Assembly: GCA_003327425.1 (NCBI GenBank)
Contig: QOQW01000016.1
Coordinates: 1-64,000 of the forward strand
Length of the DNA: 64,000 nucleotides
From: Candidatus Ozemibacter sibiricus
GTDB taxonomy: Bacteria; Muiribacteriota; Ozemobacteria; Ozemobacterales; Ozemobacteraceae
Direction of reading: 5' to 3'
The notes below the pieces were generated by a model. That model worked only from the letters and a program-made list of their open reading frames with translations, was not told where the DNA came from and ran no database searches. The position numbers and the translations under genes were made by a program. Of the stretch, positions 4,981-37,440 are shown one piece after another (position 1 is the first letter of the stretch; the number at the start of each line of letters is the position of its first letter).

Positions 4981-5010
4981 TTGACAGGTGGTCAAAAAAA
5001 GTGCTTTAAT
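4981..5010 (+). promoter_or_regulatory. Strong sigma70-type promoter for the hyd operon
   Basis: TTGACA (4981-4986, perfect -35) and TTTAAT (5005-5010, near-consensus -10) are separated by 18 bp that includes an A7 run. The predicted start of transcription is near 5017, about 16 nt before the hydC ATG. The 5' leader would therefore be very short, with only a weak AAAGG element upstream of the start codon. Confidence 0.65.
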
Positions 5011-5032
5011 TCACAAAAAGGCTGCGCGAACA

Positions 5033-5518
5033 ATGGCCGATCAGTTTGAAACCGTACGGGGCATCATCGGTCGGTATCACCACGACCGAAGTCGGCTGAT
5101 TCAGGCCATGTATGAGATCCAAGATGCCATGGGGTACATCTCGGATCCAATATTGGCCATGATCGCCGAGGGCTTCGGCATCGCCAAAAGCGAAGTGGCC
5201 GGGGTCGCTACCTTTTACCCCCACTTCCAGTTGAAGGCCAAAGCACGCTTCGTCATACGATGCTGCTCGGGCGTGGTGTGCGAGATCTGCGGGAATGCCG
5301 CGCTCCGGGAGGCAGTTCGCAAGACGCTCCGGATCAAAGAGGGAGAAGCGACCCGGGATGGCATGTTCCTGCTGAAGGTCGGTGGGTGCCTCGGGGCCTG
5401 CGACCAGGCTCCTGCCTTGATGATCAATGAAACCTTATATGGAAAGGTGCGCCCGGAGGACATTCCCGACCTTCTGCAGGGGGTGGCGCGCGGGGCCGCC
5501 ATGGGAGAGAAGTCATGA
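5033..5518 (+). CDS. hydC: [FeFe]-hydrogenase gamma subunit, NuoE-like [2Fe-2S] protein
   Basis: A 161-residue member of the NuoE/24-kDa family: an N-terminal helical part (about 1-70) and a thioredoxin-like [2Fe-2S] domain. The four cluster ligands are recognisable as a C-x4-C pair in CCSGVVC and a C-x3-C pair in GGCLGACDQAP. In NAD-linked multimeric hydrogenases this subunit relays electrons next to the NuoF-like subunit. ATG 5033 is chosen because the family begins close to this point and because the promoter at 4981-5010 lies upstream. A GTG at 4988 would place the start inside the promoter. The stop overlaps the hydB start (ATGA), so the two are translationally coupled. Confidence 0.85.
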   Translation: MADQFETVRGIIGRYHHDRSRLIQAMYEIQDAMGYISDPILAMIAEGFGIAKSEVAGVATFYPHFQLKAKARFVIRCCSGVVCEICGNAALREAVRKTLRIKEGEATRDGMFLLKVGGCLGACDQAPALMINETLYGKVRPEDIPDLLQGVARGAAMGEKS

Positions 5519-6843
5519 GTCCCATGGAGTGCCACCCCTTGCTCGATCATCTGGCCCGGCCTGCCCTCGAAACCTGGGAAGGCTATCGGGCGGCCGGCGG
5601 AGGCAAGGCTTTCGAACGGGCGGTGCGGCACTCGACACCGGAAGCGGTGCGTGCTGATATTCAGGCGTCGGGATTGAAAGGCCGAGGGGGGAGCGCCTTC
5701 CCGACCGGAGAAAAAATGGAAGCCGTGGCGCGGGCGTCGGGCTTCCCTCGCTATGTCGTGATGAATGGAGAAGAAGGGGGGCCCGGCGGGTTCAAAGACC
5801 GGTTTCTGCTCGAGGGCAGTCCCTATCTCATCCTGGAAGGCCTGCTGCTCGCTGGCTACGCCAGCGGGGCGACGCAGGGCCTCTGTGTGGTGCGGCGCAG
5901 CGCTCCAGAGGCGCAGCGCCGCCTGCGCCAGGCGGTTGAAGGCTTGCGAGCAGCCGGCTGGCTGGGGGCGAATATTCTGGGCACCGGGTTCACCTTCGAG
6001 GTGAGCGTCGAGATCGGAGCTGGGGTGTTCTGCTGCGGGGAAGAAACGGCCTTGTTGGAATCTGTTCAAGGGCGACGAGGGTATCCCCGCCCGCGACCGC
6101 CGTATCCTTCCGAGAAGGGATTTCGCGACTGCCCGACGTTGGTGGTCAATGTCGAGACCCTCGCCAATCTGCCTCTGATCATCGACCGAGGCCCGGAGTG
6201 GTTCCGCAGCATCGGTCGGGCCGACGATCCTGGCACACGTCTGTGGGGGGTCAGCGGACATGTTCGGAAGCCGGGAGTGTACGAAGCCCCGATCGGCACC
6301 CCGCTGGCCGAGGTTCTGGCTCAGGCGGGCGGGCCGCGCGAGGGCGAGCGCCTGGCCGCCGTCCTGCCGGGAGGCGCCGTGTCGGCCTTTCTGCCCGCCG
6401 AGGCCCTGGAAACCCCGCTGGCGGCGGATACCCTCGCCGCCCATGGGGGCTGCCTGGGGTCGGGAGCGATCATCGCCTTCTCTGATCGGTGCTGCTTCGT
6501 GCAGGTGGCGCAACGGCTGGCCGCCTTCTTCGAGCAGGAATCGTGCGGCAAATGCACGCCCTGCCGGGAAGGGACGAAAAAACTGCGGGAAGTGCTCGAG
6601 AGCGTGTCCAGCGCCCGGCGCAAGAATGGGGGCGAGCCGCGACGCGGCGTGGGCCGGGAAGTGCCGCCGCCCCGGCCGGGCGAGCTGCTGCCCCTGCTGA
6701 TCGAGACGCTGGCCCGGTCGTCGGCGTGCGGCCTGGGCCGGGCGGCCGGCACCGCGATCGGCAGCGCCCTCCGGTTGTTCCCGGAGGAATTCGCGGCGCA
6801 TTTCCAACGGCACGAGTGCCCCAAACGGATCTGCTGGAGCTGA
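5515..6843 (+). CDS. hydB: [FeFe]-hydrogenase beta subunit, NuoF-like NAD(H)-binding flavoprotein
   Basis: A 442-residue NuoF homologue. FMN/NADH-site motifs are present: GRGGSAFPTG near residue 56 and NGEEGGPGGFKDR near 84. The soluble-ligand-binding region follows, then the 4Fe-4S site ESCGKCTPCREG near 343 with the fourth Cys in SACGLG near 405. It should oxidise or reduce NAD(H) and exchange electrons with HydC and HydA. It consists of the NuoF core only. The N-terminal [2Fe-2S] thioredoxin-like domain and the C-terminal 2x[4Fe-4S] ferredoxin domain of the ~600-residue electron-bifurcating HydB proteins are both absent. A linker after residue 360 is Arg/Pro-rich and lower in similarity. 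The start is coupled to hydC, and hydA begins 4 nt after the stop. Confidence 0.85.
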   Translation: MSPMECHPLLDHLARPALETWEGYRAAGGGKAFERAVRHSTPEAVRADIQASGLKGRGGSAFPTGEKMEAVARASGFPRYVVMNGEEGGPGGFKDRFLLEGSPYLILEGLLLAGYASGATQGLCVVRRSAPEAQRRLRQAVEGLRAAGWLGANILGTGFTFEVSVEIGAGVFCCGEETALLESVQGRRGYPRPRPPYPSEKGFRDCPTLVVNVETLANLPLIIDRGPEWFRSIGRADDPGTRLWGVSGHVRKPGVYEAPIGTPLAEVLAQAGGPREGERLAAVLPGGAVSAFLPAEALETPLAADTLAAHGGCLGSGAIIAFSDRCCFVQVAQRLAAFFEQESCGKCTPCREGTKKLREVLESVSSARRKNGGEPRRGVGREVPPPRPGELLPLLIETLARSSACGLGRAAGTAIGSALRLFPEEFAAHFQRHECPKRICWS

Positions 6844-6847
6844 GCGG

Positions 6848-8599
6848 ATGATGACCGGACGATCGGGAGCCGAGGTGAACCTGGTGCTGAACGGGTTCCC
6901 GTTGCGGGTGCCGGCGGGGACGACCATTCTCGAGGCCGCCCGCCGGATCCATGTCACCCTCCCGCGGTTGTGCTCCCTGCCGGGGCGGGCGCATCACGGC
7001 TCGTGCCGGGTCTGCGTGGTCGAGGTGAAGGGCCGCCACGAGCTGCTGCCAGCCTGCGAGACCGTCGTGACCGAAGGGATGGTGATCGAGACCAACTCGC
7101 CGGTGGTGCGGCGGACGCGCCGCATGCTGGTCGAGCTGCTGCTGGCCAGCCATCCCGAGGACTGCAACACCTGCGACCGCAACCGGCTCTGCGAATTGCG
7201 CCGCCTGGCCCACGAGACCGGCATCCGGACGCGCTACTTCGAGCGGAGCCCCAAAGAGGGTTTCTACCCCGATACCTCCCATCCGTCGATCGTGCGCGAC
7301 CCCAACAAATGCCTGCTGTGCGGTCGGTGCGTCCATATCTGCCGCGAGGTGCAGACGGTCGAGGCCATCGGATTCATGGGGCGGGGGGGGCAGACCCAGG
7401 TGGCCAGCCCGTTCGCGGGCGGTCTGGGGGCTTCGCCCTGCGTCGGATGCGGCCAGTGCGTGCTGGCCTGCCCGGTCGGGGCGTTGCATGAGCAACACGA
7501 CCTCGACGCCATCTGGGATGTCCTGGCCGATCCCGCCAAGACGGTGATCGCCCAGGTGGCGCCCGCCACGCGCGTCTCGCTGGGAGAGGAATTCGACCAC
7601 CCGCCGGGGACGGCGCTGACCGGCCAGATCGTGGCGGCGCTGCGTCGGCTGGGGTTTCGCTATGTGTTCGACACCAGTTTCGCCGCCGATCTGGTAGCCG
7701 TGGAGGAAGGGCACGAGCTGGTCGACCGGCTGCAGGGCGGTGGGCCTCTGCCCTTGATCTCCAGTTGCAGTCCGAGTCTGGTCAAATTCATCGAACACTT
7801 CTACCCGGCGCAGTTGCCCCATCTCTCGGTCTGCAAGTCGCCGCAACAGGCGTTCGGAGCGCTCGCCAAGACCTGGTTCGCCCAGCGCCGGGGTCTCGAT
7901 CCGCACCGGATCGTGGTGATCTCGGTGATGCCCTGCACCGCCAAGAAATATGAGGCGGCCCGCCCCGAAATGAAGCGGAACGGAGTGCCCGACGTGGATT
8001 TCGTCCTGACCAATCGGGAGCTGGCGCGTCTGATTCGCGAAGCCGGGATCGATTTCGCCGCGTTGCCCGAGGAGCCCTTCGATTCCCCGATGGGAAGCGC
8101 TTCGGGGCCCGGTACCCTGTTCGGAACCTCGGGTGGCATGACCGAAGCGACGCTCGAGACGGTGCGCGCGCTGCTCGGCGGCCCGCCGCCCGGCCCCGAA
8201 GAGTACACTCCGCTGCGGGGGCTGAGCGAGGTCAAACGCGCCGCCTTCCGGCTGGGCGATCGGTTGCTGCCGGTGGCGGTGGCCAGCGGTCTGAGCAACG
8301 CCCGCACCCTGCTCGAATCGATCCGGGCCGGGAATCCGGAGGGGCTGGCGTTCATCGAATTGATGGGCTGTCCGGGCGGGTGCGTCGGGGGCGGTGGCCA
8401 ATCGCACGAAGCCTCGTTCGAGGTGCGGTCGATGCGGTCTTCGGCGCTCCATCGCGAGCATCGGGGGCGGCCGATCCGGCGGCCGGCCGACAATCCGGCC
8501 CTGCAGGCCCTCTATGAGGAATTCCTGGGCAAGCCCGGCGGCCTGAAAAGCCGCGATATTCTGTACACCCGCTATTTTCCCCGAAGCAAATACTGGTAG
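6848..8599 (+). CDS. hydA: [FeFe]-hydrogenase catalytic subunit
   Basis: A 583-residue enzyme with the CpI-like order of domains. First comes an N-terminal [2Fe-2S] ferredoxin domain (Cys in RLCSL, CRVC and PACE, residues ~38-75). A His/Cys-ligated [4Fe-4S] site follows (HPEDCNTCDRNRLC, ~101-114), then two ferredoxin-type [4Fe-4S] clusters (CLLCGRCVHIC ~156; CVGCGQCVLACP ~198). The H-cluster domain has L2 MPCTAKKYE (~361) and L3 ELMGCPGGCVGGGGQ (~505). L1 reads SSCSP near 301 instead of TSCCP, with Ser at the position of the second Cys. It catalyses reversible 2H+ + 2e- = H2. With HydB and HydC it forms an NAD(H)-linked trimer. It lacks the extra C-terminal [2Fe-2S] domain of Thermotoga HydA. 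No Tat signal is present, so it is cytoplasmic. Confidence 0.93.
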   Translation: MMTGRSGAEVNLVLNGFPLRVPAGTTILEAARRIHVTLPRLCSLPGRAHHGSCRVCVVEVKGRHELLPACETVVTEGMVIETNSPVVRRTRRMLVELLLASHPEDCNTCDRNRLCELRRLAHETGIRTRYFERSPKEGFYPDTSHPSIVRDPNKCLLCGRCVHICREVQTVEAIGFMGRGGQTQVASPFAGGLGASPCVGCGQCVLACPVGALHEQHDLDAIWDVLADPAKTVIAQVAPATRVSLGEEFDHPPGTALTGQIVAALRRLGFRYVFDTSFAADLVAVEEGHELVDRLQGGGPLPLISSCSPSLVKFIEHFYPAQLPHLSVCKSPQQAFGALAKTWFAQRRGLDPHRIVVISVMPCTAKKYEAARPEMKRNGVPDVDFVLTNRELARLIREAGIDFAALPEEPFDSPMGSASGPGTLFGTSGGMTEATLETVRALLGGPPPGPEEYTPLRGLSEVKRAAFRLGDRLLPVAVASGLSNARTLLESIRAGNPEGLAFIELMGCPGGCVGGGGQSHEASFEVRSMRSSALHREHRGRPIRRPADNPALQALYEEFLGKPGGLKSRDILYTRYFPRSKYW

Positions 8600-8615
8600 C
8601 GCAAGGAGAACCACC

Positions 8616-10007
8616 ATGGCTACTCTCACTCCCCCCGATGTGTTCGACCTCCCCGGGCTCGAAGCGCGGGCCCGCTCCCGTCAGAAGCCCGATCGGAGCC
8701 GCCTGGCCGAGCTGCTGGCCAAGGCCCGCGGCTTGCACGGCCTGACCCCCGACGAAGCCGCGTTCCTGCTCGATGTCGATGATCCTGAAGATCGCCAGCA
8801 GCTGCTCGATGTGGCGATCAAGGTCAAACAGGAGATCTATGGCCCCCGGCTGGTGCTCTTCGCGCCGCTCTACACCTCGAGCCACTGCACCAATGACTGC
8901 CTCTACTGCGGGTTCCGCGCGACTTCCGGCACGGCCCGCCGGCGCCTGACCCTCGAGGAGATCAAAGCCGAGACCCGCGCCATCGTGGCCATGGGGCACA
9001 AGCGGGTGTTGATGGTGGCGGGGGAAGATGTCACGCTGACCCCGCGCGATCTGGCCGCGCAGGTCGAGGCCATCTATTCCGTGCATGAGCCCAAGGGCAA
9101 TATCCGGCGGGTCAACGTCAACGCCGCGCCCCTCGATGTGGAGGGCTTCAAAGTGCTCAAGGGAGCCGGCATCGGCACCTACCAGTGCTTCCAGGAGACC
9201 TACCATCCTGAGACCTACCGCCGCATGCATCCGCGTGGGCCCAAGAGCGACTATCACGGTCGGCTGCATGTCTTCGACCGCTGCATTCCGGCGGGCATCG
9301 ACGATTTCGGCATGGGGTTCCTGTTCGGGCTCTACGACCATCGGTTCGAGACGCTCGCCCTGCTGCAGCACATCGCCTGGCTCGAGAAGACGTTCGGCAT
9401 CGGCCCGCACACCATTTCCATCCCGCGCTTGGAGCCGGCCGAAGGGACGGACGTCTATGAAACCACCCCCTGGAAGGTCTCCGATGACGAACTGCTGAAA
9501 GTGACCGCCATCCTGCGGCTGGCCGTGCCCTACACCGGTATCATCCTGTCGACGCGGGAGACGCCGGCCTTGCGGCACCGGCTGCTGCAGGTCGGGGTTT
9601 CCCAGATGTCGGCAGGGTCGATCACCAATCCGGGCGGCTATGCGGAAGGGGAGGACTCGGTGGCCCAGTTCGAGGTGCAGGACCACCGCTCGCTCGACGA
9701 GGTGATCCGCGAGGTCTGCAAGGAACGGTACGTGCCGAGTTTCTGCACCGGCTGCTATCGGAAAGGCCGAACCGGCGAGAAGTTCCAGTCGATGGCGAAA
9801 CACCAGCATATCGACACGTTCTGCTCGCTGAACGCGGTCGCCACCCTGCAGGAGTACCTCGAGGATTTCGCCTCGCCCGAGACGCGGCAGGTGGCTGAAC
9901 GCTGTCTGGGCGAGTTCATCGAGCAGCAGACCGACCCCGAGATGCGCGCCAAGATGATGGAATGGCGCGCACGCATCAAGAAAGGCGAGCGTGACATTCC
10001 CTATTGA
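8616..10007 (+). CDS. hydG: [FeFe]-hydrogenase maturase HydG (radical SAM tyrosine lyase)
   Basis: A 463-residue ThiH-like radical-SAM enzyme that splits tyrosine to p-cresol and dehydroglycine and supplies CO and CN- to the H-cluster. The CxxxCxxC motif is HCTNDCLYC near residue 89. The C-terminal cluster-binding domain shows FCTGCYRKGRTGEKF near 378, which distinguishes HydG from ThiH. The MGHKRVLMVAGED segment fits the family. AAGGAG at 8603-8608 precedes the ATG by 7 nt. It follows hydA by 16 nt, so product and client are co-transcribed. A 131-bp gap before hydE contains no gene. Confidence 0.93.
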   Translation: MATLTPPDVFDLPGLEARARSRQKPDRSRLAELLAKARGLHGLTPDEAAFLLDVDDPEDRQQLLDVAIKVKQEIYGPRLVLFAPLYTSSHCTNDCLYCGFRATSGTARRRLTLEEIKAETRAIVAMGHKRVLMVAGEDVTLTPRDLAAQVEAIYSVHEPKGNIRRVNVNAAPLDVEGFKVLKGAGIGTYQCFQETYHPETYRRMHPRGPKSDYHGRLHVFDRCIPAGIDDFGMGFLFGLYDHRFETLALLQHIAWLEKTFGIGPHTISIPRLEPAEGTDVYETTPWKVSDDELLKVTAILRLAVPYTGIILSTRETPALRHRLLQVGVSQMSAGSITNPGGYAEGEDSVAQFEVQDHRSLDEVIREVCKERYVPSFCTGCYRKGRTGEKFQSMAKHQHIDTFCSLNAVATLQEYLEDFASPETRQVAERCLGEFIEQQTDPEMRAKMMEWRARIKKGERDIPY

Positions 10008-10138
10008 CGCGTCAGCGACGGGCGTCGCCGGTCGTGGATCGTGGTGGCGCTCGCGCGGACGCCGGACCTGGCCCTTGGCCCGACCTGCCTGGCCCGATCG
10101 GCAGGACCTGGACGACGGGGCCCGACCGGAGATGATGA

Positions 10139-11191
10139 ATGACGATTGATGTGGCAACGATCTGGGACGCTTTGGCGACTCGTGCCGCCTTGTCGCCGGC
10201 ACAGGCCGATTTCCTGTTCTCGCCTGCGTTCGACCCCCATCGGGAGCGGCTCTACGCGATGGCCGACGAGGTGCGGCGGCGCGAAGTCGGGGATGAAGTC
10301 TACCTGCGCGGCATCGTCGAGTTCAGCAACATCTGTCGGTGCCGCTGCGCGTACTGCGGAATCTCCGCCCTCAACGCCGGCGTGTCGCGCTATCGGATGA
10401 CCCGCGACCAGATCGCGGCGACGATCGACGCCGCGTATCGGCTGGGCTACCGCAGCTTCGTGCTGCAGTCGGGCGAGGATCCCGGGTACACGGTCGACGA
10501 CCTGTGCGGCATCATCAGCCATCTCAAAGAGCGGTTCGACGTGGCATTGACCCTGTCGATCGGGGAATGGCCGCGCGAGGCCTATGCCGCGTTCAAAGCG
10601 GCCGGGGCCGATCGGTTCCTGTTGCGGATCGAGACGTCCGACCCGGTGCTGTACGCGCGGTTCCATCCGCATTCGACCTGGGAGCGCCGGCACCGCTGCC
10701 TGATGGACCTGAAAGAGCTGGGCTATCAGGTGGGCAGCGGCATCCTGGTCGGACTGCCGGGCCAGGATGGCGCCAGCCTGGGTCGCGATCTCGAGTATCT
10801 GCGGGCCTTGCGGCCCGAGATGGTGGGCATCGGTCCGTTCATCCCGCACCCTGCCACGCCGCTGGCCGGCGAGAAGGGCGGCACCCTCGAGGCCTGCTTG
10901 ACCTTCCTGGCCCTGCTGCGCCTGTACCTGCCCGATGCCTTCCTGCCGGCGACGACGGCGATGGGGAGCATCGATCCCCAGGGACGTCAGAAAGCGCTAC
11001 GGGCGGGGGCCAATGTCATGATGCCGAACGTCTCGCCGATGGAGAACCGCGAGAGCTACCAGCTCTATCCGGGCAAGATCTGTCTGACCGACGATGCTGG
11101 CGCCTGCCGGAAATGCGTGGAGCGGATGGTGACGGCCATGGGCCGTACCGTGAACACCGGCCACGGGCACATCCGCCGGAAGGTGTTCTGA
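10139..11191 (+). CDS. hydE: [FeFe]-hydrogenase maturase HydE (radical SAM)
   Basis: A 350-residue BioB-like radical-SAM protein. The cluster motif is CRCRCAYCGI (C-x3-C-x2-C) near residue 66, and LQSGEDPGY follows the radical-SAM core as in HydE. HydE processes the organometallic Fe(CO)2CN-cysteine synthon delivered by HydG on the way to the diiron subcluster. The C-terminus has CRKC, near the second metal site of some HydE proteins. GGAG lies 7 nt before the ATG. The stop is 2 nt from aspA. The third maturase, the GTPase HydF, is not encoded in this window. Confidence 0.92.
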   Translation: MTIDVATIWDALATRAALSPAQADFLFSPAFDPHRERLYAMADEVRRREVGDEVYLRGIVEFSNICRCRCAYCGISALNAGVSRYRMTRDQIAATIDAAYRLGYRSFVLQSGEDPGYTVDDLCGIISHLKERFDVALTLSIGEWPREAYAAFKAAGADRFLLRIETSDPVLYARFHPHSTWERRHRCLMDLKELGYQVGSGILVGLPGQDGASLGRDLEYLRALRPEMVGIGPFIPHPATPLAGEKGGTLEACLTFLALLRLYLPDAFLPATTAMGSIDPQGRQKALRAGANVMMPNVSPMENRESYQLYPGKICLTDDAGACRKCVERMVTAMGRTVNTGHGHIRRKVF

Positions 11192-11193
11192 CG

Positions 11194-12576
11194 ATGGGCA
11201 CGGACTCTCGGATCGAACGCGATTTCCTGGGCGAACGGGCGGTGCCGGCCGGGGCCTACTATGGCATCCATGCCGTGCGGGCTGCCGAGAACTTCGCGGT
11301 GTCGGGCCGCCGGCTGCCGCGCTCGCTGATCCGGGCCCTCGCCCTGATCAAGAAGGCGGCGGCGCTGGCCCATGGGCAGCTCGGCGACCTCGACCCGGAC
11401 AAGGTGCGGGCCATCGAGCAGGCCTGCGACGAAATGGCCAGCGGCCGCTTCGATGCGGAGTTCATCGTCGATCCGCTGCAGGGCGGGGCCGGCACGGCCA
11501 CCAACATGAACGCCAACGAGATCGTGGCCAACCGAGCCTGCGAGTTGCTGGGTTCGCCATTGGGCAGCTACGTGCCGGTGCATCCGACCGACGATGTCAA
11601 TCGGGGCCAGAGCACGAACGATGTCTTTCCCACGGCGGTGCGCATCGCCGCCATCTGGGAGCTGCGCGACCTGGTCGATGAGGTGGCCCGTCTGCAGGAA
11701 AGCCTGCAGAAAAAGGAAAACGAGTTTGCCGCGATCTTGAAGATCGGCCGCACCCAGTTGCAGGATGCGGTGCCGGTGACGCTGGGGGCCGAGTTCTCGG
11801 CCTGGGCCGAGGCCATCTCGCGCGATCGGTGGCGGCTGTATCGGGTCGAGGAACGGCTGCGGGTGGTCAACCTCGGGGGCACGGCGGTCGGCACCGGCAT
11901 CAACACCTCCCGCAAGTTCCAGTTCGAAATCCTCCGGATCCTGCGGGATGAGACGGGCATCGGGCTGGCGCGGGCCGACAACCTGGTCGAGGCGACCCAG
12001 AACGCCGATGTCTTCGTCGAGATCTCCGGCCTGCTGAAGCCGCTGGCGGTGAATCTGAGCAAGATGGCGTCCGATCTGCGTCTGCTGGCGTCGGGGCCGC
12101 GCTCGGGCCTGGGCGAAATCCGGCTGCCGGCGGTGCAAGAAGGCAGCAGCATCATGCCGGGCAAGGTCAACCCGGTGATGTGCGAGATGATCCATCAGAT
12201 CGCCATGAAGGTCTATGGGAACGACCTGGTCATCACGCACGCGGCCGAGATGGGCCAGCTCGAGCTGAACGCCTTCCTGCCCGTGATCATGGACGTGCTG
12301 CTCGAGTCGCTGACCATGCTGCGGCGCGGGATCGCCCTGTTCAACGATCGTTGCGTCAAGGGCATCGAGGCCAACGAGCAGCGGTGTCGCGAGAACCTGC
12401 GCGGTTCGCTGGGCCTGCTGACGGTGCTGGCCGGGCGGCTGGGCCACGAGGCGATGTCGCAGGTCTACCAGCGCCACCTGCGGACGGGGGAGCCGGTCAC
12501 CGACATCCTGATCAGCGAGGGCTGGGCCACGGCGGCTGAGATCGAGGCGGCTCTCGAACGCTATCGCGCGGTCTGA
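11194..12576 (+). CDS. aspA: Aspartate ammonia-lyase (fumarase/aspartase superfamily)
   Basis: A 460-residue member of the class II fumarase/aspartase family. Seen are the N-terminal YYGIHAVRAAENF, the aspartase-like GGAGTATNMNANE near residue 97, RGQSTNDVFPTA near 136, and the catalytic mobile loop GSSIMPGKVNPVMCEM near 315. The first two favour aspartase over fumarase. It deaminates L-aspartate to fumarate and ammonium. It lies 2 nt after hydE in the same operon. Aspartase-like genes are known neighbours of hyd maturation genes in anaerobes. A role in supplying ammonium for the azadithiolate bridge of the H-cluster is plausible but inferred. Confidence 0.88.
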   Translation: MGTDSRIERDFLGERAVPAGAYYGIHAVRAAENFAVSGRRLPRSLIRALALIKKAAALAHGQLGDLDPDKVRAIEQACDEMASGRFDAEFIVDPLQGGAGTATNMNANEIVANRACELLGSPLGSYVPVHPTDDVNRGQSTNDVFPTAVRIAAIWELRDLVDEVARLQESLQKKENEFAAILKIGRTQLQDAVPVTLGAEFSAWAEAISRDRWRLYRVEERLRVVNLGGTAVGTGINTSRKFQFEILRILRDETGIGLARADNLVEATQNADVFVEISGLLKPLAVNLSKMASDLRLLASGPRSGLGEIRLPAVQEGSSIMPGKVNPVMCEMIHQIAMKVYGNDLVITHAAEMGQLELNAFLPVIMDVLLESLTMLRRGIALFNDRCVKGIEANEQRCRENLRGSLGLLTVLAGRLGHEAMSQVYQRHLRTGEPVTDILISEGWATAAEIEAALERYRAV

Positions 12577-12626: not shown

Positions 12627-15600
12627 TCACGCCGTGTCGAAGCGGAAGATCTCGACCTCGCGGCGTTTCCCTTTCACGCGGGTTTCGGCCAGACGCCGGC
12701 CGGGAAAGGCCGCGGCGAGGTCGGGGGTGGCCGCCACCAGGTCGGCAACCGCGCCGTCGGTGACGAGCCCTCCGCCCGATCGAGCGGCGAGATCGGCCAG
12801 CCGCGAGGCCAGGTTGACCGTGTCGCCCAGGATGGTCATCTCGAGCCGTACGCTCGGGGTGCCCAGCAGCCCGAATAGCACGGGGCCGCGGGTCAGGCCG
12901 AGGGCGGGCGGACCAGGCAGATCGGGGATCTCGACGGGCAGCCGCTGGCGCAGGGTGGCGGCGGCGTGCAGGGCCTGAGCGAGCGTGGCGGCGGGCGGGG
13001 TGGTGCCGGTGATGGGGAAGAACGCCAGCAGTTTGTCGCCGATGAATTTGTCGATGTCGCCGCCCGCCGCCCGGATGTGGCGCCCAGCGGCGGCCAGGGC
13101 GCGGTTGAGGAGGCTGACGATGCTCTGGGGATCGCGTTCGGCCAGCAGATCCTTGAACCCGGTCAGGGTGACGAACAAGACGAAGGCCTCGCGGCTCTGG
13201 CCGGCGCGGGCCTCGGCGCTGCGACCCTCGCGCAACGTGGTCAAGGTGGCCTCAGAGACGAATCGGCCCAGCAGGCGGCCCTGCGCCGCTTCTTCGGCCA
13301 TGCGGTTGAAGGCCGTGGCCAGGGCGTCGAACTCCCCGCCGTCGCCCAGAGGCAGGCGGGGGGAATAGTCGCCGGCGGCGATGCGCTGAGCGGCAGCGGC
13401 GAGCCGGTGCATGGGGGTCAGGAACCGGTCGGTCACCAACGTGGCCAGCCAGATGGTAAGCACCAGAATGCCGACCAGGAGAGCCCCTTGCAGGAGGAAT
13501 TCCCGGTTCACCCGCTCGAGAATGCGGCCCAGGCGGAGCGTGCCGATCACGATGTTGTCGTTGAGCTGGCGGAGGGGAATGGCCAGAGCGAGGGTGCGGG
13601 TCGAGCCGTGGCCGCGCTCTTCCAGCACTGCGGTCCGCCGTCGCTGGGCGGTCAAGGCCAGGCGGTGGTCGGCCGGCGGCGTGAGACGGAGCCATTCGTG
13701 CGTCAGGAACGGCTGGCCGGGGTCGGCCCGGAGGGAATCGACCGGGCGCGCTTTGCGAAAGGCGGGCGCGTTGGATTTGATCAAGGACCACCGGACGGGG
13801 GCATCGTAGCGGGGTTGAAGGAGATGATAGTAGAAGGAATGGAATTCCGGCATCGTCCGCCAGGTCAGCATCACGCCGAGGGGAGGCCTGGACGCGCCAG
13901 GGATCAGGGTGGTGTAGGTATGGTCGTTCGTCCCCTGCGATGATGACCATGTCGAAAGCTGATCGGGGGCGAGAAAGAAGCGACCGACCTGGTCCAGGCC
14001 GAGGGTGAGTCCGACGTCTTCGTACTCCTTTTCGAGTTCGCTGCCGATCAGCATTTCCTGGTCGGGGGCGCCTGGACGAGAGGATGGCTCCTGGTCTTCG
14101 CCCCAACCCAGCGAGCGGGCGCCGGTTCGAGCCAGGTAGCGCGTGGCGAGGAGGCGGGGATCCTTGGTGGCCGGGACGGGGCGGGTGGGGTCGAACATCG
14201 CTCCCTGGCCCTGCGTGGGGGCCACCGAGAGATCGAGGAGGGGAAGGCCCAGGAGCGTCAGGTGTCGCCACAGTGTGGGGAGCGTTTCGGCCAGCCGGTT
14301 GGTCGCTTCCGAACCTGCCTGAGGAACGCCGGAGGCGAAGACGCAGGGATGGAACGTGGCCCGGAACAGGGCGCGGGTCGTGGCCCGGGTCAGGTCGGTG
14401 GCAGCTTCCAAGGCGGCGGCACGGACAAACAGGGTTTCCTGGCTGTCGCCCTCCTGCCGGGTCAGGTGTTCGGCACGAGATTGGTCGAGAATAGCGATGG
14501 CGATCACCAGGGTCGGGAAGATGGCCAGCAGGAACCCGCCCAGCAGTTGGCGTGAAAGGGGAAGGAAGGTTCGTTCGGGGCCGCTGCGCCAGTACCTCAA
14601 AAACCAGAGACCCCCGGCCAGCCAGGCCAGGGCGGCGAGCCCGCCGATCACGCGAGGGATGGTCGGCGGGGGCTTGGGACGGGCCAGCCATACGCTTTCG
14701 GAGGCCAGGGTCCCAGGCGGGATCCGGTGGAAGATCAGCTCAGAGGCGGTCGCCACGGCGAGGAGGCCAGTGTTCCATGGCCGTGGGGGTCCTCCTCCCG
14801 TGACGGCTTGCCGAGGAAACTGGTTCGTGACTTGCTGCCCCGGGCTGGGCGGAGTCGGCGACCAGACGCCTAGCGCCCCGCGGCGAGCCCATTGTCGCAG
14901 GATCTGGGTCATGGTCAAGGCTTTGGGGGCTTGATCGGGAGGAACCATCAGAACCAACAACCCGCGCAGTCGCCGCATGATGTCGCGACCAGCCATCTCC
15001 CGGCGCGGATCGTAGCGGAGGGTACCGGCGGATCTGCTCGCGCGGCGGTAGATCGGATCGTCGGGGTGGAGGAGGTCGGGCTCTTCCAGGATCGGGGTGA
15101 TGAACCATCGTCGCGGGACGTCATTCATCGGGCTGTCGTAGGCCGTCATCAGCCGGCGTCGCAGATGGTCGATGGTCTGGCTGTACAGACCGGTGAACGG
15201 CCCGCCTCGTCGTTCCACCCACCGTTGGAGGTCGCTGGGGATGGGGATTTCGAATCCCAGCCGGGTGACGAGGTTGACCCAGAGGGTCGGCAGGAAGAGA
15301 CGGAGATCGGTGCGTGCCGCGGCCGGCAACGGGGCTCCGCCCAGAACGAGGGTGGTCCAACTGGCCAGGGGCCCTCGGAAAGGAGCGTGATTGGCGCACA
15401 GCGCGATTCCCCACGCGGGGTCGGTCGACAGCTCGAACGGCCAGGAGCCGAGTTCGTGCCACTCCAGGCCATCCACGGACCCATAGCCGAACAGTCGATC
15501 GGGACCGGGAAGCAAGCGCAGCCAGATCTCCGGCGAGGCGGTTCGAACGCGGTCAGGCGGTGGTACCCCCTCGGGGCGCATGGCTGCGGCCTCCTCGGCG

Positions 15601-18600
15601 CGCCGGGCGGTCAGGATCTCCCCGCGTCTGGCCATGAGGGCCACGCAGGCGGCGTCGCCCGTGAGGCCCTGGCGGACCATCAAGCCGACCTGGCCACGGG
15701 GTGCCCCGGTGGGATCGGTGGGGAGGGTGAACCGCGCGGTGATCCCTGGGAAGCGATCGCTGCGAAAGGCGAAGAAGAAATCGTCCCAGGTCGCGTCGAT
15801 GTCGAACCCGCCGCCCATCACCTGCCACCCGCCACCTGGCAGGGTTATCAGCTGGCCCGGAGGGTGGGCCCCGCCGATATCCAGGCCTTCCCAGCATGCC
15901 TCGGACGGTGAGGAAGGGAGAGAGGCCAAGGCGGTCGGGTCGGTGCCGAGGATGACTGGCGACACCGTCGCCAGGGCGGGGTCGGCCGCGATGTGAAAGG
16001 ACGCATACGCCCAGGACAGGCCGGGAATCTGTCGATGGGCCGCGGTCAGGCGGCGGGCGAGGGGCGGCGGGATGCCCCCCCGATCATGGCTGGTTGGAGC
16101 TGGAGGAACGGCGGGGAGAAGGAGGGGGAAGGCGCGTTGCAGGCGGATGGTCGGGGCCAGTTCCGGGTCGGCCAGGCGCGCCACTTCTTCCAGGTCGGCT
16201 TCCAGGAGCGATTCTACCACCTGGCGGTCGCGGTCCTGGCGGGCCTTCTGCCACCGCAGCCAGCCCCCGCCGAGGCAGAGCCCGGTCAACAACCAGATTA
16301 CCAGGACTCCTGCGGCGGCGGCGGAAGGCCGGGCGGTCGGCGCATCTGCCGGATGAGCGCTGGCGAGCGAAGGAGCGTGCGTGGGAGAGCGAGCGGGAGA
16401 GGGAGAGACCAAGGGGATGGACGGGGCGGAGAGGGAAGGATCGCCGCCAGGATCTGGGATCCTGGCGGGAGGCCGCGGCGAATCAGCGTTCGCAATCGAC
16501 CGGGGGGGGACGGCGAGGTGGAGGGCAGGGCAGGAATCCGACGGCGCCAAGGCAGGTCGCGGAAGCGGTGGCGTGAGATGGCGGAGTTCCCAGGCGTGGT
16601 CGGCCACAGGCAGGAACTCTTCCTCGGGATGGCGCTGGCGGATGGCGTCCGAGACAACGATCCGGGTCGCCGTGCCCTGGCGCGAGCAGCTTTCCAGGGC
16701 CGCCGCCAGCGGCACGACCTCGCCGAGGACGGTGAAATCGAGCCGGACCTCGCCGTCGCCCAGGACGCCGGCCACCACCTCGCCGCTGTCGAGGCCGATT
16801 CCGATCTCGTATAGGAAGGCCCCCGCTCGGGCCCGGCCGGCTTGCAAGGCGAGGTGGGCCTGCCGCATGGCACGGGCGGCGGCGAGGGCCCGGCGTTCGC
16901 GCGCGGTGGCGTCGGGCCCGTAGAACACGGCGACGATGGCATCGCCGATGAAGCGGTCGACCACCCCGCCCTGGCTTTGGATGGCCTCGGCCATGGCTGC
17001 GAGGTGGGCATTCAGCATCTGGAAGACCGCCTCGGGAGGATGGGTTTCGCTGATCGTGGTGAAATCGCGCAGATCGGAGGCGAGCACGGTCACCGGCTGC
17101 CGCCGACCGGCGGCGGCGGCCGTCAGGCTGCCGCCAGCGACCACGTCCAGCACCTGGGGCGCGACGAAGCGGGTCAGATCGCGGCGGGTGCGCAGCTCGG
17201 CGGTCATCTGATCGAGGATCAGGGTCATGCGGCCCAGTTCGTCCTCCCGCGCTTCGGCCAGTCGGACCGTCAGATCGCCGTCGGCGATGGCGCCCAGGCC
17301 CTGGCCCATGCGGACCATCGGACGCGCCAGCCAGGTGGCCAGCCGATGCCCGACCAGTCCGAGCAAGAGCAGGAGGCCGGCCACCAGGGCGGCCAGCTCC
17401 CGGCGTTCCTGGCGCAGGCGGGCCTGGATTTCGGCCAGAGGCGCCTGCGCGGCCAGGATGAAGGACGGATGGTCGGCCAGCACCCGGGCCAGGCCGAGCG
17501 AGCGGCCGTGCGACAGCACGCGGGCCGGCGGCCGACCGGGCCGAACCGCCGCCGCCAGGGCGCGCAGATCCGTGGTGTCGCCGGCTCCGGCCAGATATTC
17601 CAGGCCGAGGCCGCGCTGCTCGAAGACGGCGAGCCCGGTCAGGGGGCGGGACAGCCGGTCGGTCCCGGAGCGGAAGGTGGTTTGCAGCATGGCTCGCAGG
17701 GTGGGGGCGATATCCCAGATGATGCCGATGACCATGCGCAGCCGCCCCGCTTCCCAGAACGGCTGGCCGACCCCCATGTAGCGCAGCCGGCCGAGCCAGA
17801 AGCGCTCCAGGTTGCCGGCGGCGTTCTTGCCGTAGCCGCCGATCATGGAGCCCAGGGAAAAGAGCCGCTGGGGAACGGAAGCAGGGGCGACGGCACTGGC
17901 GTTCGGGCGCAGGTCATTGGCCCAGTAGCGACCGAGAAGGCCGAGCAGGGTGGGCACCGTGTTCGTCGGCACCCTCAGATGGCCTGCCATCAGCGTGGTG
18001 CCTTGAGGGCCGAAGGCGACGACGGCCAGGGCATCCAGCCCCGCGGCGCGCACCTGGTGCAGGAGCGTATCGAGCACGGGCGAGGAGGAGGCGGTGGTCC
18101 AGGGGGCCGCGGCCAGGCGGTCGGCCAGGGTGCGGCCCTGGCGGTCGGTCTGATTGAGCAGGGGGCGGCAGATGGCGGCCTGCCGGGCGGCCAGGCCGTC
18201 GATTTCTTCTTCGAAGGCGTCGAGACGGAGGCCCAGCGTGCGCGCCAGTTCGTCTTGCAGGTTCCGTTCATGGGCCTGGGCATGACGGGTGCCAGCGATG
18301 ATCGCCGCCATGACCGGAAGAGCCGCCAATCCGGCGAACCAGAGAAACAGCGCGCCGCGAATGCCCGGCTGGGGCCAGCGTCCTTCTCGGAGGCGGAACC
18401 CTCCGATCCACGTCCAGGCGATGACCCAGACCCAACTGGCCAGCCGGGCGGTCCAGCCCAGCAACCCGGGCCCGGTGGCCGGGCGACGGATGAGCAGCAC
18501 TCCCAGATGACCCGTTGCCGGATCGAGCGGACAGACGCGCACCCACCAGTCGCCGCGTTCAGCCAGGCGGTCCACGCCGTTCCAGGGCAGGCGGGGCAGG

Positions 18601-19490
18601 CCCCTGACATCGCCGGGCGTGGGGGAAGGGCCGATGCCATACTGGCGGTACCATGCCTGCAGCACGGCGGCTACGCGGGGAGATCGCACCACCGGCGGGC
18701 CGATCGGAGTGCCGCTGGCCGGTCCGTGGGCGATTGGGGCGGGCAGGAAGGCTGGCAGGACATGGCGGGGGCGCCAGCGGTCGGCCAGGAAGCGCAGTCC
18801 CGCGAGATGCCATTCTCCGGCCGGGGGGGTGAGCAGAACCAGGAAGGCGCCCAGAGGCCGGCCCTCGCATCGACAGATCTGCCAGACCACCTGGCCGTAC
18901 TTCTGTTTATGGATCACTGGGAGGGGAATGCCTTCGTAAGGTGCTTGCAGCATCGCTGGCAGGAATCCGAACCCGAACAATCCTCGCAGGCGGCTTTCCC
19001 AGGACTTGTCCATCATGGGGCCCCCGGTTTCGCTCTCGCTCTGGCGCAGGAGATCGGTGAGCAGCCGGGTCATCATCGTGCGTTGAGCCGTTGGCCAACG
19101 GGGCCCGGCCAGGGGAACGGGCGAGGCGTCGGTTCCGTGGTCGGGGGCGACCACGGCCCAGACCTGAATGGCGCCGCTCGGGGGCGGCAAATGGGCCGCC
19201 AGCCGCTTCGACAGGGAAGCCACCCGGGCGGCGAGGGGCCGATCAGGCTGGTCGATCTCTTCCCAGGTCTTCTTCAGGCGAGAGGCCAGGAAGAGGGCCG
19301 GGAACCCCGGGGCTGAGCCGGCGCGCAGGAGGCGGGCCGCCGGATCGGTCCGCTCGAGATATCGCCGTTCGGTGTCCTCCCGGTCGAGGCGGGCCTGCAG
19401 GTCGGCCTGGTACGCCAGGAAAGCCACGGGAAGGAAGGACAGGATCAGGGGCAACCACCAGCCACCCCGCCGGACATGGCTACCAGTCAT
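12627..19490 (-). CDS. Giant two-cassette membrane class III nucleotide cyclase
   Basis: About 2,287 residues, built from two similar halves. Each half has a TM helix, a large outside domain, two TM helices, a second outside domain, a TM helix, HAMP and a class III cyclase domain (CHD). Half 1: TMs ~10, ~350, ~375 and ~705, HAMP ~715-765, CHD ~790-955. A Pro/Ser-rich linker follows. Half 2: TMs ~1075, ~1620, ~1655 and ~1995, HAMP ~2010-2065, CHD ~2090-2280. In CHD1 both metal Asp are present (D806, D850), but Lys is R846 and the Asn/Arg pair is P927/A931. In CHD2 the first metal Asp is T2108, while D2152, K2148, T2219, N2226 and R2230 are intact. K/T specificity residues suggest a class IIIb adenylate cyclase. 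Residues ~1205-1380 resemble a DUF1349-type beta-sandwich (LDIG, GGGFDI, ITARF). AGGA lies directly before ATG 19496 but 6 nt before ATG 19490, which is therefore chosen. Confidence 0.8.
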   Translation of the reverse strand: MTGSHVRRGGWWLPLILSFLPVAFLAYQADLQARLDREDTERRYLERTDPAARLLRAGSAPGFPALFLASRLKKTWEEIDQPDRPLAARVASLSKRLAAHLPPPSGAIQVWAVVAPDHGTDASPVPLAGPRWPTAQRTMMTRLLTDLLRQSESETGGPMMDKSWESRLRGLFGFGFLPAMLQAPYEGIPLPVIHKQKYGQVVWQICRCEGRPLGAFLVLLTPPAGEWHLAGLRFLADRWRPRHVLPAFLPAPIAHGPASGTPIGPPVVRSPRVAAVLQAWYRQYGIGPSPTPGDVRGLPRLPWNGVDRLAERGDWWVRVCPLDPATGHLGVLLIRRPATGPGLLGWTARLASWVWVIAWTWIGGFRLREGRWPQPGIRGALFLWFAGLAALPVMAAIIAGTRHAQAHERNLQDELARTLGLRLDAFEEEIDGLAARQAAICRPLLNQTDRQGRTLADRLAAAPWTTASSSPVLDTLLHQVRAAGLDALAVVAFGPQGTTLMAGHLRVPTNTVPTLLGLLGRYWANDLRPNASAVAPASVPQRLFSLGSMIGGYGKNAAGNLERFWLGRLRYMGVGQPFWEAGRLRMVIGIIWDIAPTLRAMLQTTFRSGTDRLSRPLTGLAVFEQRGLGLEYLAGAGDTTDLRALAAAVRPGRPPARVLSHGRSLGLARVLADHPSFILAAQAPLAEIQARLRQERRELAALVAGLLLLLGLVGHRLATWLARPMVRMGQGLGAIADGDLTVRLAEAREDELGRMTLILDQMTAELRTRRDLTRFVAPQVLDVVAGGSLTAAAAGRRQPVTVLASDLRDFTTISETHPPEAVFQMLNAHLAAMAEAIQSQGGVVDRFIGDAIVAVFYGPDATARERRALAAARAMRQAHLALQAGRARAGAFLYEIGIGLDSGEVVAGVLGDGEVRLDFTVLGEVVPLAAALESCSRQGTATRIVVSDAIRQRHPEEEFLPVADHAWELRHLTPPLPRPALAPSDSCPALHLAVPPRSIANADSPRPPARIPDPGGDPSLSAPSIPLVSPSPARSPTHAPSLASAHPADAPTARPSAAAAGVLVIWLLTGLCLGGGWLRWQKARQDRDRQVVESLLEADLEEVARLADPELAPTIRLQRAFPLLLPAVPPAPTSHDRGGIPPPLARRLTAAHRQIPGLSWAYASFHIAADPALATVSPVILGTDPTALASLPSSPSEACWEGLDIGGAHPPGQLITLPGGGWQVMGGGFDIDATWDDFFFAFRSDRFPGITARFTLPTDPTGAPRGQVGLMVRQGLTGDAACVALMARRGEILTARRAEEAAAMRPEGVPPPDRVRTASPEIWLRLLPGPDRLFGYGSVDGLEWHELGSWPFELSTDPAWGIALCANHAPFRGPLASWTTLVLGGAPLPAAARTDLRLFLPTLWVNLVTRLGFEIPIPSDLQRWVERRGGPFTGLYSQTIDHLRRRLMTAYDSPMNDVPRRWFITPILEEPDLLHPDDPIYRRASRSAGTLRYDPRREMAGRDIMRRLRGLLVLMVPPDQAPKALTMTQILRQWARRGALGVWSPTPPSPGQQVTNQFPRQAVTGGGPPRPWNTGLLAVATASELIFHRIPPGTLASESVWLARPKPPPTIPRVIGGLAALAWLAGGLWFLRYWRSGPERTFLPLSRQLLGGFLLAIFPTLVIAIAILDQSRAEHLTRQEGDSQETLFVRAAALEAATDLTRATTRALFRATFHPCVFASGVPQAGSEATNRLAETLPTLWRHLTLLGLPLLDLSVAPTQGQGAMFDPTRPVPATKDPRLLATRYLARTGARSLGWGEDQEPSSRPGAPDQEMLIGSELEKEYEDVGLTLGLDQVGRFFLAPDQLSTWSSSQGTNDHTYTTLIPGASRPPLGVMLTWRTMPEFHSFYYHLLQPRYDAPVRWSLIKSNAPAFRKARPVDSLRADPGQPFLTHEWLRLTPPADHRLALTAQRRRTAVLEERGHGSTRTLALAIPLRQLNDNIVIGTLRLGRILERVNREFLLQGALLVGILVLTIWLATLVTDRFLTPMHRLAAAAQRIAAGDYSPRLPLGDGGEFDALATAFNRMAEEAAQGRLLGRFVSEATLTTLREGRSAEARAGQSREAFVLFVTLTGFKDLLAERDPQSIVSLLNRALAAAGRHIRAAGGDIDKFIGDKLLAFFPITGTTPPAATLAQALHAAATLRQRLPVEIPDLPGPPALGLTRGPVLFGLLGTPSVRLEMTILGDTVNLASRLADLAARSGGGLVTDGAVADLVAATPDLAAAFPGRRLAETRVKGKRREVEIFRFDTA

Positions 19491-19837
19491 GGCCATTCCT
19501 GGTGGTGGTTCGGAAACGAGTGGGGGAGGCAAGTCTGGTGACTCGGTCAGCGGGTGGGTTCGCCGCAGACGAGCAGCCCTCGGCCATCACTTCGGTCATC
19601 ACCCCGGTCATCGCTGCGCACCGCTGGGGTGAATGCCTGTTCTGTTCAGACCCGGCCAGGGAGGGGAGCCTTTCGCCTTCGCGGGTGATCCGTGGCGAGC
19701 CAGGGCGGGGGCAGGCAGCTTCGCCGGTGGGGTCATGATCGGGGGACGTCCTGGAGCACCCGGAGCGGTCGGCTGGGGTGGCGCCTCCCGGGTTCTCGTA
19801 CCACCCTGGCTGGCCGGGGCCGCCAACCGGCGGTCAT
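19491..19837. other. Intergenic region without recognisable gene
   Basis: This gap of about 350 bp lies between the start of the cyclase gene and the end of sppA, both on the minus strand. It should hold the cyclase promoter. Short open frames here (for example 72 codons at 19608-19826, minus) are Pro/Ala-rich, lack a ribosome-binding site and look like chance. I see no clear -10/-35 pair, RNA gene or repeat. Confidence 0.5.
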
Positions 19838-33666: not shown

Positions 33667-34719
33667 TCATGCGTGGGGTGGCTGCGGTGGATGCTCCTTG
33701 AACCACGCGGCCAGGCGCCGGGCCCCTTCGTCGATCGACACGCGGGGCTCGTAGCCGAGGTCGCGGCGGGCCGCGGCGATGTTGAACCAGTGGGCGGTCG
33801 ACATCTCGCTGGCCAGCCAGCGGGTCATGCGGGGCTCGCCGGACAGCCGGAAGATCGTCCAGATCCATTCCATGGCCCAGCCGATGCACCAGGCGACTCC
33901 AGCCGGGATGGTCTTGGTCACAGGGGGTTCGCCAGCCGCGACCAGGATCAGATTGACCATGTCGAACAACGGTCGGGGTTCGCCGTTGCTGATGAAATAC
34001 GCTTTGCCTGCGCAGGGAGCGCCGGGGGCGAGCCGCTCGGCCGCCAGCAGGTGGGCTTCCGCCGCGTTGTCGATGTAGATCGTATCGACGAGGTTGGTGT
34101 TGTTGCCGACGATGCGGAGCCGGCCGGCGCGGGCCGCAGCGATCATGCGGGGGGCGAGATGGTTGTCGCCGGGGCCCCAGATCAGGTGGGGCCGCAGGGC
34201 GACCGTGGCGAGATCGGGCCCATTGGCAGCCAGGACGAGTTTTTCGGCCATGGCCTTGGTGCGCGGGTAGTGGGTTTCGTAATGCTCGCTGTAGGGCACC
34301 GATTCATCGGCGTTCTCCATGTCCTTGCCGCCGAAGACGACACTGGGCGAGCTGGTGTAGACGAGGCGCTTGATCTTCAACTCGCGGCAGGCCGCCAGTA
34401 CGTTCTCGGTGCCGATGACGTTCGCCTGGTAGTACTCTTCGTAGGGGCCCCACATACCAGCCTTGGCGGCCACATGGAAGACCACCTCGCACCCTCGACA
34501 GGCGTTGGTGATCGCGGCTCGGTCGGTCAGATCGCCGCGCACGGTCTCGATGCCGAGGTGCTCGAGTTCGGGATAGGCGCCACGAGAAAAGCTGCGCACC
34601 TTCACCCCGCGTTGGGCGAGCATCGTGGCGATGGCCTTGCCTAAGAAACCGCCGCCGCCGGTGACCAGAACCTGGGTGCCCGCCGGCAGCCCAGGCGCCG
34701 GGCTGGAAGCATTGCTCAT
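33667..34719 (-). CDS. oleD: OleD, 2-alkyl-3-ketoacyl reductase of head-to-head olefin synthesis
   Basis: A 350-residue extended short-chain dehydrogenase of the 3-beta-HSD/epimerase type. The Rossmann motif is VTGGGGFLGKAI near residue 19, and the catalytic YPRTK (YxxxK) lies near 150 with an upstream TSSPSVVFGG Ser. OleD reduces the beta-keto acid made by OleA to a 2-alkyl-3-hydroxyalkanoate, using NADPH. The assignment rests on the family plus oleA, oleB and oleC directly upstream in the order A-B-C-D. GGAGG lies 4 nt before the ATG. The C-terminal half has an uncleaved hydrophobic stretch, AWCIGWAMEWIWTIF, which may touch the membrane. Confidence 0.85.
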   Translation of the reverse strand: MSNASSPAPGLPAGTQVLVTGGGGFLGKAIATMLAQRGVKVRSFSRGAYPELEHLGIETVRGDLTDRAAITNACRGCEVVFHVAAKAGMWGPYEEYYQANVIGTENVLAACRELKIKRLVYTSSPSVVFGGKDMENADESVPYSEHYETHYPRTKAMAEKLVLAANGPDLATVALRPHLIWGPGDNHLAPRMIAAARAGRLRIVGNNTNLVDTIYIDNAAEAHLLAAERLAPGAPCAGKAYFISNGEPRPLFDMVNLILVAAGEPPVTKTIPAGVAWCIGWAMEWIWTIFRLSGEPRMTRWLASEMSTAHWFNIAAARRDLGYEPRVSIDEGARRLAAWFKEHPPQPPHA

Positions 34720-36511: not shown

Positions 36512-36522
36512 GGGTGTCCTCG

Positions 36523-37440
36523 TCAGGCAGATACGGTGGTCGGGCGGTTGTCGAGGGGGTGCCGGGCCAGGAAATCGCGCATCAGGGCGATGACTTCCTG
36601 ATGCACCTCTTCGAGGAGGTAGTGCCCGGCCTGCCGGAAGGAATGGGCCTCGACCTGGGGCAGCCGTCGCCGCCATTCCAGGAAGAACGCGCGGTCGAAG
36701 ATGAAATCGCGCTGCCCCCAGCACAACAGGGCCGGGGTGTTCTGGAAATGGGCCAGCCCGCGTTCGACGGCCTGCAGATCATCCCAGGAAGGATCGCCAG
36801 GAGCGAGCGGAATATCCTGCACGAAGCGGATCGTGGCGATGCGGTTTTCCCAGGAATCGTACGGGGCGAGGAAGGCCTCGTACACGGCAGGGGGCAAAGG
36901 CTTGACCGTGCTGGTCAGCGCGGTGATGCGGGCGAAGGCGTTGCAGCGCCGGGTGAGCCATTCGCCCAGGGCGGAATGGCGGAACAGCCACAGCGGCCAG
37001 GGGAAGGGCTTGCCAGCCGGCAGTCCGAACGCGGCGGTGTTGAAGATGACGAGGCGTTTGATGCGCTCCGGGTGGCGGGCGGCATAGCCGAACCCGATCG
37101 GCCCGCCCCAGTCATGCACGACGAGCGTGATGTCGCCGGTGACCCCGCGGTCGGCCAGCAGGGCTTCGAGGTCGTCGATGCGCGAACGCAGCCGGTACTC
37201 GTAGCGGTCATCGCCGGGCTTGTCGGAAAGCCCGCATCCGATGTGGTCGGGGACGATCACCCGACAGGTGTCGCGGAAGGCCGAGACCAGGCGCCGATAC
37301 AAAAACGACCACGAGGGGTTGCCGTGCACCATGACCATGGTCTCGGCGCCCTGGCCTTCCTCGAGGTAGTGCAGGCGCAGGCCGCGGCGATCGAAGAAAT
37401 GGCTGGCGAACGGATAGTCGGGAAACGACGGCGTCACCAT
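36523..37440 (-). CDS. oleB: OleB, beta-lactone decarboxylase (haloalkane-dehalogenase-like)
   Basis: A 305-residue alpha/beta-hydrolase with VMVHGNPSWSFLYRRL near residue 38, a nucleophile elbow VVHDWGGPIGFG with Asp near 113, as in haloalkane dehalogenases, and a C-terminal His in FRQAGHYLLEEV near 280. In olefin synthesis OleB decarboxylates the beta-lactone from OleC to a cis-olefin. ATG 37440 overlaps the oleA stop (ATGGTGA). A GTG 6 nt upstream is an alternative. As a stand-alone gene it matches Gram-negative ole clusters, in contrast to actinobacterial OleBC fusions. Confidence 0.87.
   Translation of the reverse strand: MVTPSFPDYPFASHFFDRRGLRLHYLEEGQGAETMVMVHGNPSWSFLYRRLVSAFRDTCRVIVPDHIGCGLSDKPGDDRYEYRLRSRIDDLEALLADRGVTGDITLVVHDWGGPIGFGYAARHPERIKRLVIFNTAAFGLPAGKPFPWPLWLFRHSALGEWLTRRCNAFARITALTSTVKPLPPAVYEAFLAPYDSWENRIATIRFVQDIPLAPGDPSWDDLQAVERGLAHFQNTPALLCWGQRDFIFDRAFFLEWRRRLPQVEAHSFRQAGHYLLEEVHQEVIALMRDFLARHPLDNRPTTVSA

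Follow-up and report, generated by a model that had tools for sequence, protein, structure and literature searches.

A tandem receptor adenylyl cyclase of Candidatus Ozemibacter sibiricus with complementary half-sites, predicted to act as an obligate pseudo-heterodimer

The analysis of a 64,000-nucleotide stretch of DNA (the window) from Candidatus Ozemibacter sibiricus indicated that one of its genes very probably encodes an obligate pseudo-heterodimeric, cAMP-making receptor, which would have originated inside its own bacterial family by duplication, complementary loss, coupling and fusion. The protein is best read as an adenylyl cyclase of class IIIb-like type that has a single active site and receives two separate inputs from the periplasm, although activity, ligands and pairing geometry have not been demonstrated. 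The sequence pattern, the co-divergence of the halves, the homology of the units and the phylogeny were observed directly; co-folding, the cAMP product and regulation by two inputs are inferred.

The longest open reading frame (12627-19532, 2301 aa) begins with TTG at 19532, 14 codons upstream of an ATG at 19490. We favoured the ATG because AGGA is located six bases before it, and all residues are numbered from it, with an offset of 14 residues relative to the TTG-start protein. The gene and its parts are as follows.

12627-19490, minus strand: tandem receptor adenylyl cyclase gene, 2287 aa from ATG 19490
18468-19406, minus strand: periplasmic sensor A of unit 1, about 310 aa, placed between hydrophobic segments (low-confidence model)
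17328-18311, minus strand: sensor B of unit 1 with its flanking TM helices, dCache-like (model pLDDT 72, PDB matches)
16635-17105, minus strand: CHD1, putative donor of the C1-type half-site (Pfam Guanylate_cyc, residues, C1 clade)
16323-16580, minus strand: Pro/Ala/Ser-rich linker from unit 1 to unit 2 (read directly in the sequence)
14613-16265, minus strand: sensor A of unit 2, longer than that of unit 1 (hydrophobic segments, profile comparison)
13503-14483, minus strand: sensor B of unit 2 (hydrophobic segments, profile comparison)
13290-13430, minus strand: HAMP domain of unit 2 (Pfam HAMP match at residues 2035-2081 when counted from the TTG)
12642-13280, minus strand: CHD2, putative donor of the C2-type half-site (Pfam, residues, C2 clade)

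Pfam recognised two HAMP and two Guanylate_cyc domains in the protein and gave no convincing match outside them. Membership of the class III cyclases was supported by two PF00211 matches (whole-protein E 5.1e-21) and by PDB matches to class III cyclases at E-values down to 4.7e-23. The nearest relative, L154 of the same genus, has an identical layout, with 61% and 59% identity in the two cyclase domains, and the natural span from CHD1 to CHD2 in such tandem proteins is about 1500 aa.

In a class III active site one domain contributes two Asp, and the other contributes Lys, Thr or Asp, Asn and Arg. The original prediction had named ten residues in the two domains, and all ten were found as stated: CHD1 keeps both metal-binding Asp (D806 and D850), with Lys replaced by R846, Asn by P927 and Arg by A931, and CHD2 keeps K2148, T2219, N2226 and R2230 and has T2108 at the first metal Asp position. 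The second metal Asp of CHD2, which the prediction had not mentioned, is also kept (D2152), so that T2108 is the only catalytic loss in this domain. The six positions are thus complete across the dimer, with D806 and D850 coming from CHD1 and the other four from CHD2. Neither domain is complete by itself, as each chain of a homodimeric bacterial class III enzyme would have to be, and given the requirement for a class III site only C1:C2 pairing fulfils it here. Lys together with Thr marks adenylyl cyclases of class IIIb, and the combination predicts ATP as the substrate.

In the mechanism that we propose, CHD1 would supply the two metal-binding Asp, and CHD2 the adenine-recognising Lys and Thr together with the transition-state Asn and Arg. 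The C1/C2 interface would then form the sole complete site, its mirror site would be dead, and pairs of like domains (C1/C1, C2/C2) would have no activity. Each half is predicted to have four TM helices of its own, two sensors in the periplasm, of which sensor B is dCache-like, and a HAMP domain; with these separate parts, two inputs probably converge on the one active site.

The same arrangement recurs in the 5.68-Mb draft genome of the organism, a member of the Ozemobacteraceae (Riflebacteria). All 53 Pfam cyclase domains were extracted, and they included 17 C1/C2 couples, nine of them in adjacent genes and eight as fusions, of which seven each lie in a single ORF of more than 2000 aa and one is a frame-broken copy on contig C36. 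Each of the 17 consisted of one C1-type domain, with both metal Asp and without Asn and/or Arg, and one C2-type domain, with K, T, N and R and without the first Asp. Among the remaining 20 domains, 18 were complete. The two odd unpaired domains (C23:55801-56376 and C29:87571-89883) are a degenerate 191-aa domain adjoining a complete cyclase and a lone domain without the first Asp, Asn or Arg. The genome also gave 14 matches to cNMP-binding domains.

When the survey was extended to at least 18 genomes of the family, this one included, all 78 couples (76 scored by machine and two, C18 and the second couple of L164, read by eye) were complementary. Loci outside the organism's own genome were picked by similarity to C1 and C2 profiles and are not a random sample. 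Within one ORF, 40 of the couples are fused, and the remainder are split; two or three of the latter (L026, L041 and one in L226) resemble fused genes that are frame-broken or cut. In the 76 machine-scored couples, both metal Asp were present in every C1 domain (76/76 at each position), and Lys, Asn and Arg in every C2 domain (76/76 each), with Thr at the adenine position in 75 and Ser once, so that the base-recognition residues expected of an adenylyl and not a guanylyl cyclase (Lys with Asp, Thr or Ser) were present throughout. Retention was strict at these positions, and the positions that each half does not need were variable. The first metal position of C2 was G, S, A, T, Q, E or H, and D in three; these three (L168, L169 and L171, DKETNR) carry Glu at the second metal position, which is a putative alternative route to disabling the second site. 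The Asn and Arg positions of C1 held K, A, S, E and others; Asn was kept in 5/76 and Arg in 7/76, never both together. A pattern recurring in every couple examined is far beyond chance. It supports one composite active site per couple, in line with the single active site that the original prediction proposed for this protein, as does the completeness of the lone cyclases described below, with the interface and its activity remaining inferences.

C1 precedes C2 in each of the 40 fused couples, and the order is reversed in four split couples (C17, C47:114330, C18 and L172). The genes of split couples mostly overlap by 4 nt, which suits coupled translation. In three genera (g4, g9 and g10) C1 types had seemed to stand beside complete partners, and this was ruled out, as their C2 partners are more divergent and lack the first Asp. 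Between three and six fused genes stand in head-to-tail arrays at G019:C314 (L224, L225; six genes), G020:C22 and G021:C150, and in many of their C1 domains Lys occupies the Asn position as well as the Arg position (DKDAKK/DKDSKK). At L041 (CG2_30_54_10), C1 and C2 are separated by a frame change and by only about 300 aa; the locus is either misassembled or encodes a compact form whose second sensor is reduced.

Lone cyclases provided a control within the family. Scored identically to the couples, they were complete in 29 of 29 cases, including proteins of about 1000 aa with the 4-TM, two-sensor, HAMP layout. At 75 other loci found by profile search, mostly in other phyla, the two Asp and the Lys, Asn and Arg were retained in 78/78 domains. 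Adjacent same-strand couples were rare among the matches listed for eight cyclase-rich genomes of other phyla, and in the three such couples examined from other phyla, and in L080, both domains were complete; in spirochaetes, both partners of adjacent couples are complete. The best matches of the C1 and C2 profiles in seven further families of this phylum were complete cyclases where examined, without any C1 or C2 type. At the examined loci the two types were seen solely in the Ozemobacteraceae.

A phylogeny of both cyclase domains, which had been proposed as a check, was computed without the six site columns and without metazoan sequences. C1 and C2 formed separate clades (51 rows each, with node values of 97 and 99, respectively), and a few reversed-order pairs branched early or uncertainly. 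Fused and split members separated alike within C1 and within C2. The distance matrices of C1 and C2 partners were correlated with r 0.90 vs a permuted maximum of 0.10 (76 couples, 2000 permutations), so that chance pairing of C1 with C2 was rejected. Within the organism's own genome the correlation was 0.73 vs a permuted maximum of 0.49, and shared species history cannot explain the co-divergence of partners there.

The kinship extends beyond the catalytic domains. In a comparison of family profiles without HAMP and cyclase domains, the sensor regions of unit 1 and unit 2 matched with E 2.5e-23 over 639 columns, so that the two cassettes are homologous from end to end, which upholds the original description of two equivalent TM/sensor cassettes in a pseudo-twofold architecture. 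The sensor region of fused unit 1 is nearest to those of split C1 receptors and that of fused unit 2 to those of split C2 receptors; since this mirrors the kinship of the cyclase domains, the whole receptor was duplicated and not the catalytic domain alone. The independent origin suggested at the outset is likewise well supported, by the restriction of the C1 and C2 types to the Ozemobacteraceae among the examined families the nearest un-duplicated relatives being lone 4-TM HAMP cyclases of that same family. We propose that a complete homodimeric receptor cyclase was duplicated inside this family, and that complementary loss between the copies would have been followed by translational coupling and by gene fusion, once or twice. 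The trees left the number of fusions undecided: they need two changes between fused and split states, and a single fused clade was not rejected (AU p 0.455 for C1 and 0.54 for C2).

Each unit has four TM helices and a HAMP domain, as judged from relatives and from the two HAMP matches in the tandem protein, and the HAMP domains join the cyclase domains to the parts in the membrane. A dCache sensor is made up of a long helix and two Cache subdomains. With the model of sensor B of unit 1 (pLDDT 72), 91 matches in the PDB passed E<=0.001, and dCache domains of chemoreceptors ranked best (probability 1.00). Their TM-scores were only about 0.3, so the likeness to dCache holds at the level of the fold class only, and Pfam gave no match for the sensors. 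The model of sensor A (pLDDT 57) had no PDB match at E<=0.001 and only weak matches to dCache, and nothing is concluded from it.

It can be asked whether the mirror site, which the original prediction called potentially allosteric, has kept a function. It could be a regulatory ligand site, comparable with the sites for forskolin and bicarbonate in animal cyclases, which would give the receptor three inputs; we find this rather unlikely. Arg replaces the CHD1 Lys in 24/24 fused clade-A members at a mean identity of 43%, and this invariance at the R846 position, the sole evidence that bears on an allosteric role, suggests a constraint on the dead site, yet the Arg may be structural and there is no evidence of a ligand. 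In a second fused group, Lys stands in place of both Asn and Arg in most C1 domains. Lys95 and Arg176 in C1 of human soluble adenylyl cyclase (sAC, ADCY10) stand, we assume, at the Lys and Arg positions of CHD1, R846 and A931. This pair binds bicarbonate beside the active site (PMC12250328), but with A931 at the second position it is not kept in the tandem cyclase.

The possibility also exists that pairing takes place between chains, in which case two tandem proteins would associate and share two C1/C2 sites in place of one intramolecular site. In principle, a half might find its partner in a paralogue or in another copy of the same protein. Dimerisation of HAMP and dCache domains usually occurs between chains, the linker is long and apparently flexible, and the split couples show that the halves can occupy separate chains. 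Fusion and the 4-nt overlaps, however, hold the halves at 1:1 and near each other, which suits a 1:1 heterodimer, and the close analogue sAC pairs its two domains within one chain (PMC12250328), so that we consider pairing between tandem proteins unlikely. That the catalytic domains are simply decaying, leaving a pseudo-enzyme or a protein that signals by another route, is very improbable: residues required in complete cyclases are indeed missing from both CHD1 and CHD2, but the losses never overlap and each half keeps what its partner lost in 78/78 couples, the needed positions are retained in 76/76 where decay would strike both halves of the site, and the partners co-diverge.

The pseudo-heterodimeric cyclase proposed here can be compared with several known systems. 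In metazoan transmembrane cyclases (tmACs, ADCY1-9), C1 provides the metal Asp and C2 the Lys, Asn and Arg. They share with the tandem cyclase the fusion of C1 followed by C2, one active and one dead site, and membrane halves with pseudo-twofold symmetry that derive from a homodimeric enzyme of bacterial type which was duplicated and fused (PMC9552081). They differ in having six TM per half and no HAMP, as opposed to four TM, two large sensors and HAMP, and in having Asp at the adenine position (class IIIa) where the tandem cyclase has a IIIb-like Thr. Sequence matches between the two are weak, and the tandem cyclase appears to have arisen separately, within one bacterial family. Human sAC is also a tandem of C1 and C2 with one active site, to which C1 contributes Asp47 and Asp99 and C2 contributes Thr405 (PMC12250328), but it is no membrane receptor with HAMP. 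Homodimeric class III cyclases of bacteria, among them mycobacterial Rv1625c/Cya, have the same catalytic fold and differ in being single chains with complete residues and two equal sites; Rv1625c, which has 6 TM, has been proposed as the un-duplicated ancestor type of tmACs (PMC9433096). Fungal rhodopsin-cyclases are receptor cyclases reported to work exclusively as heterodimers (PMC8815786), and they are eukaryotic with rhodopsin as the input. Within the Ozemobacteraceae, five lone 4-TM HAMP cyclases of about 1000 aa (L175, L178, L180, L181 and L182) have the architecture of a full-length unit and differ in keeping D, K, D, T, N and R; they are presumably homodimers and closest to the state before duplication. 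With its activity inferred, the tandem cyclase works like tmACs and sAC, yet is neither, being class IIIb-like, bacterial and lineage-specific, with 4-TM, dCache-like, HAMP halves.

A 2022 review describes bacterial class III cyclases as homodimerising and sets the duplication and fusion that gave the pseudo-heterodimer in an early eukaryote (PMC9552081). Our literature search, which did not cover subscription papers, was directed at heterodimeric or tandem class III cyclases in bacteria as well as at the names of the phylum and genus, and it returned nothing on these proteins. The inferred series from lone homodimer to split pair to fused pair parallels the inferred route to animal tmACs; a tmAC-like end point would thus have been reached within one bacterial family in which the intermediates still coexist. 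Because they coexist, it becomes testable why one dead site was favoured, whether fusion insulates many paralogues, and what purpose two membrane halves with separate inputs serve. The half-plus-half design, present many times per genome in the Ozemobacteraceae, offers a bacterial parallel for the evolution of the animal enzyme. More tentatively, the family may to a large extent have exchanged homodimeric receptor cyclases for obligate heterodimeric ones, giving each cell many insulated, two-input (coincidence-type) cAMP couples, with the dead site kept for regulation and the lone, split and fused forms as preserved steps to a tmAC-like enzyme; we regard this as possible, with the balance somewhat against it.

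Two other groups of genes in the window were observed. PUFA-synthase-like megasynthase genes lie beside OleA-, OleC- and OleD-like genes (33670-56627, minus strand), and these are possibly a pathway to long-chain polyunsaturated hydrocarbons.

54996-56627, minus strand: PfaD-like
46574-54595, minus strand: megasynthase with KS, AT, four ACP, KR and DH
38521-46584, minus strand: megasynthase with KS and three FabA
37437-38474, minus strand: OleA-like
34811-36724, minus strand: OleC-like
33670-34719, minus strand: OleD-like

The second group is an [FeFe]-hydrogenase cluster (4988-12576, plus strand) with a thioredoxin-like ferredoxin, a NuoF-like protein, the hydrogenase large subunit and a radical SAM protein with BATS; a fumarase/aspartase-family lyase comes after it.
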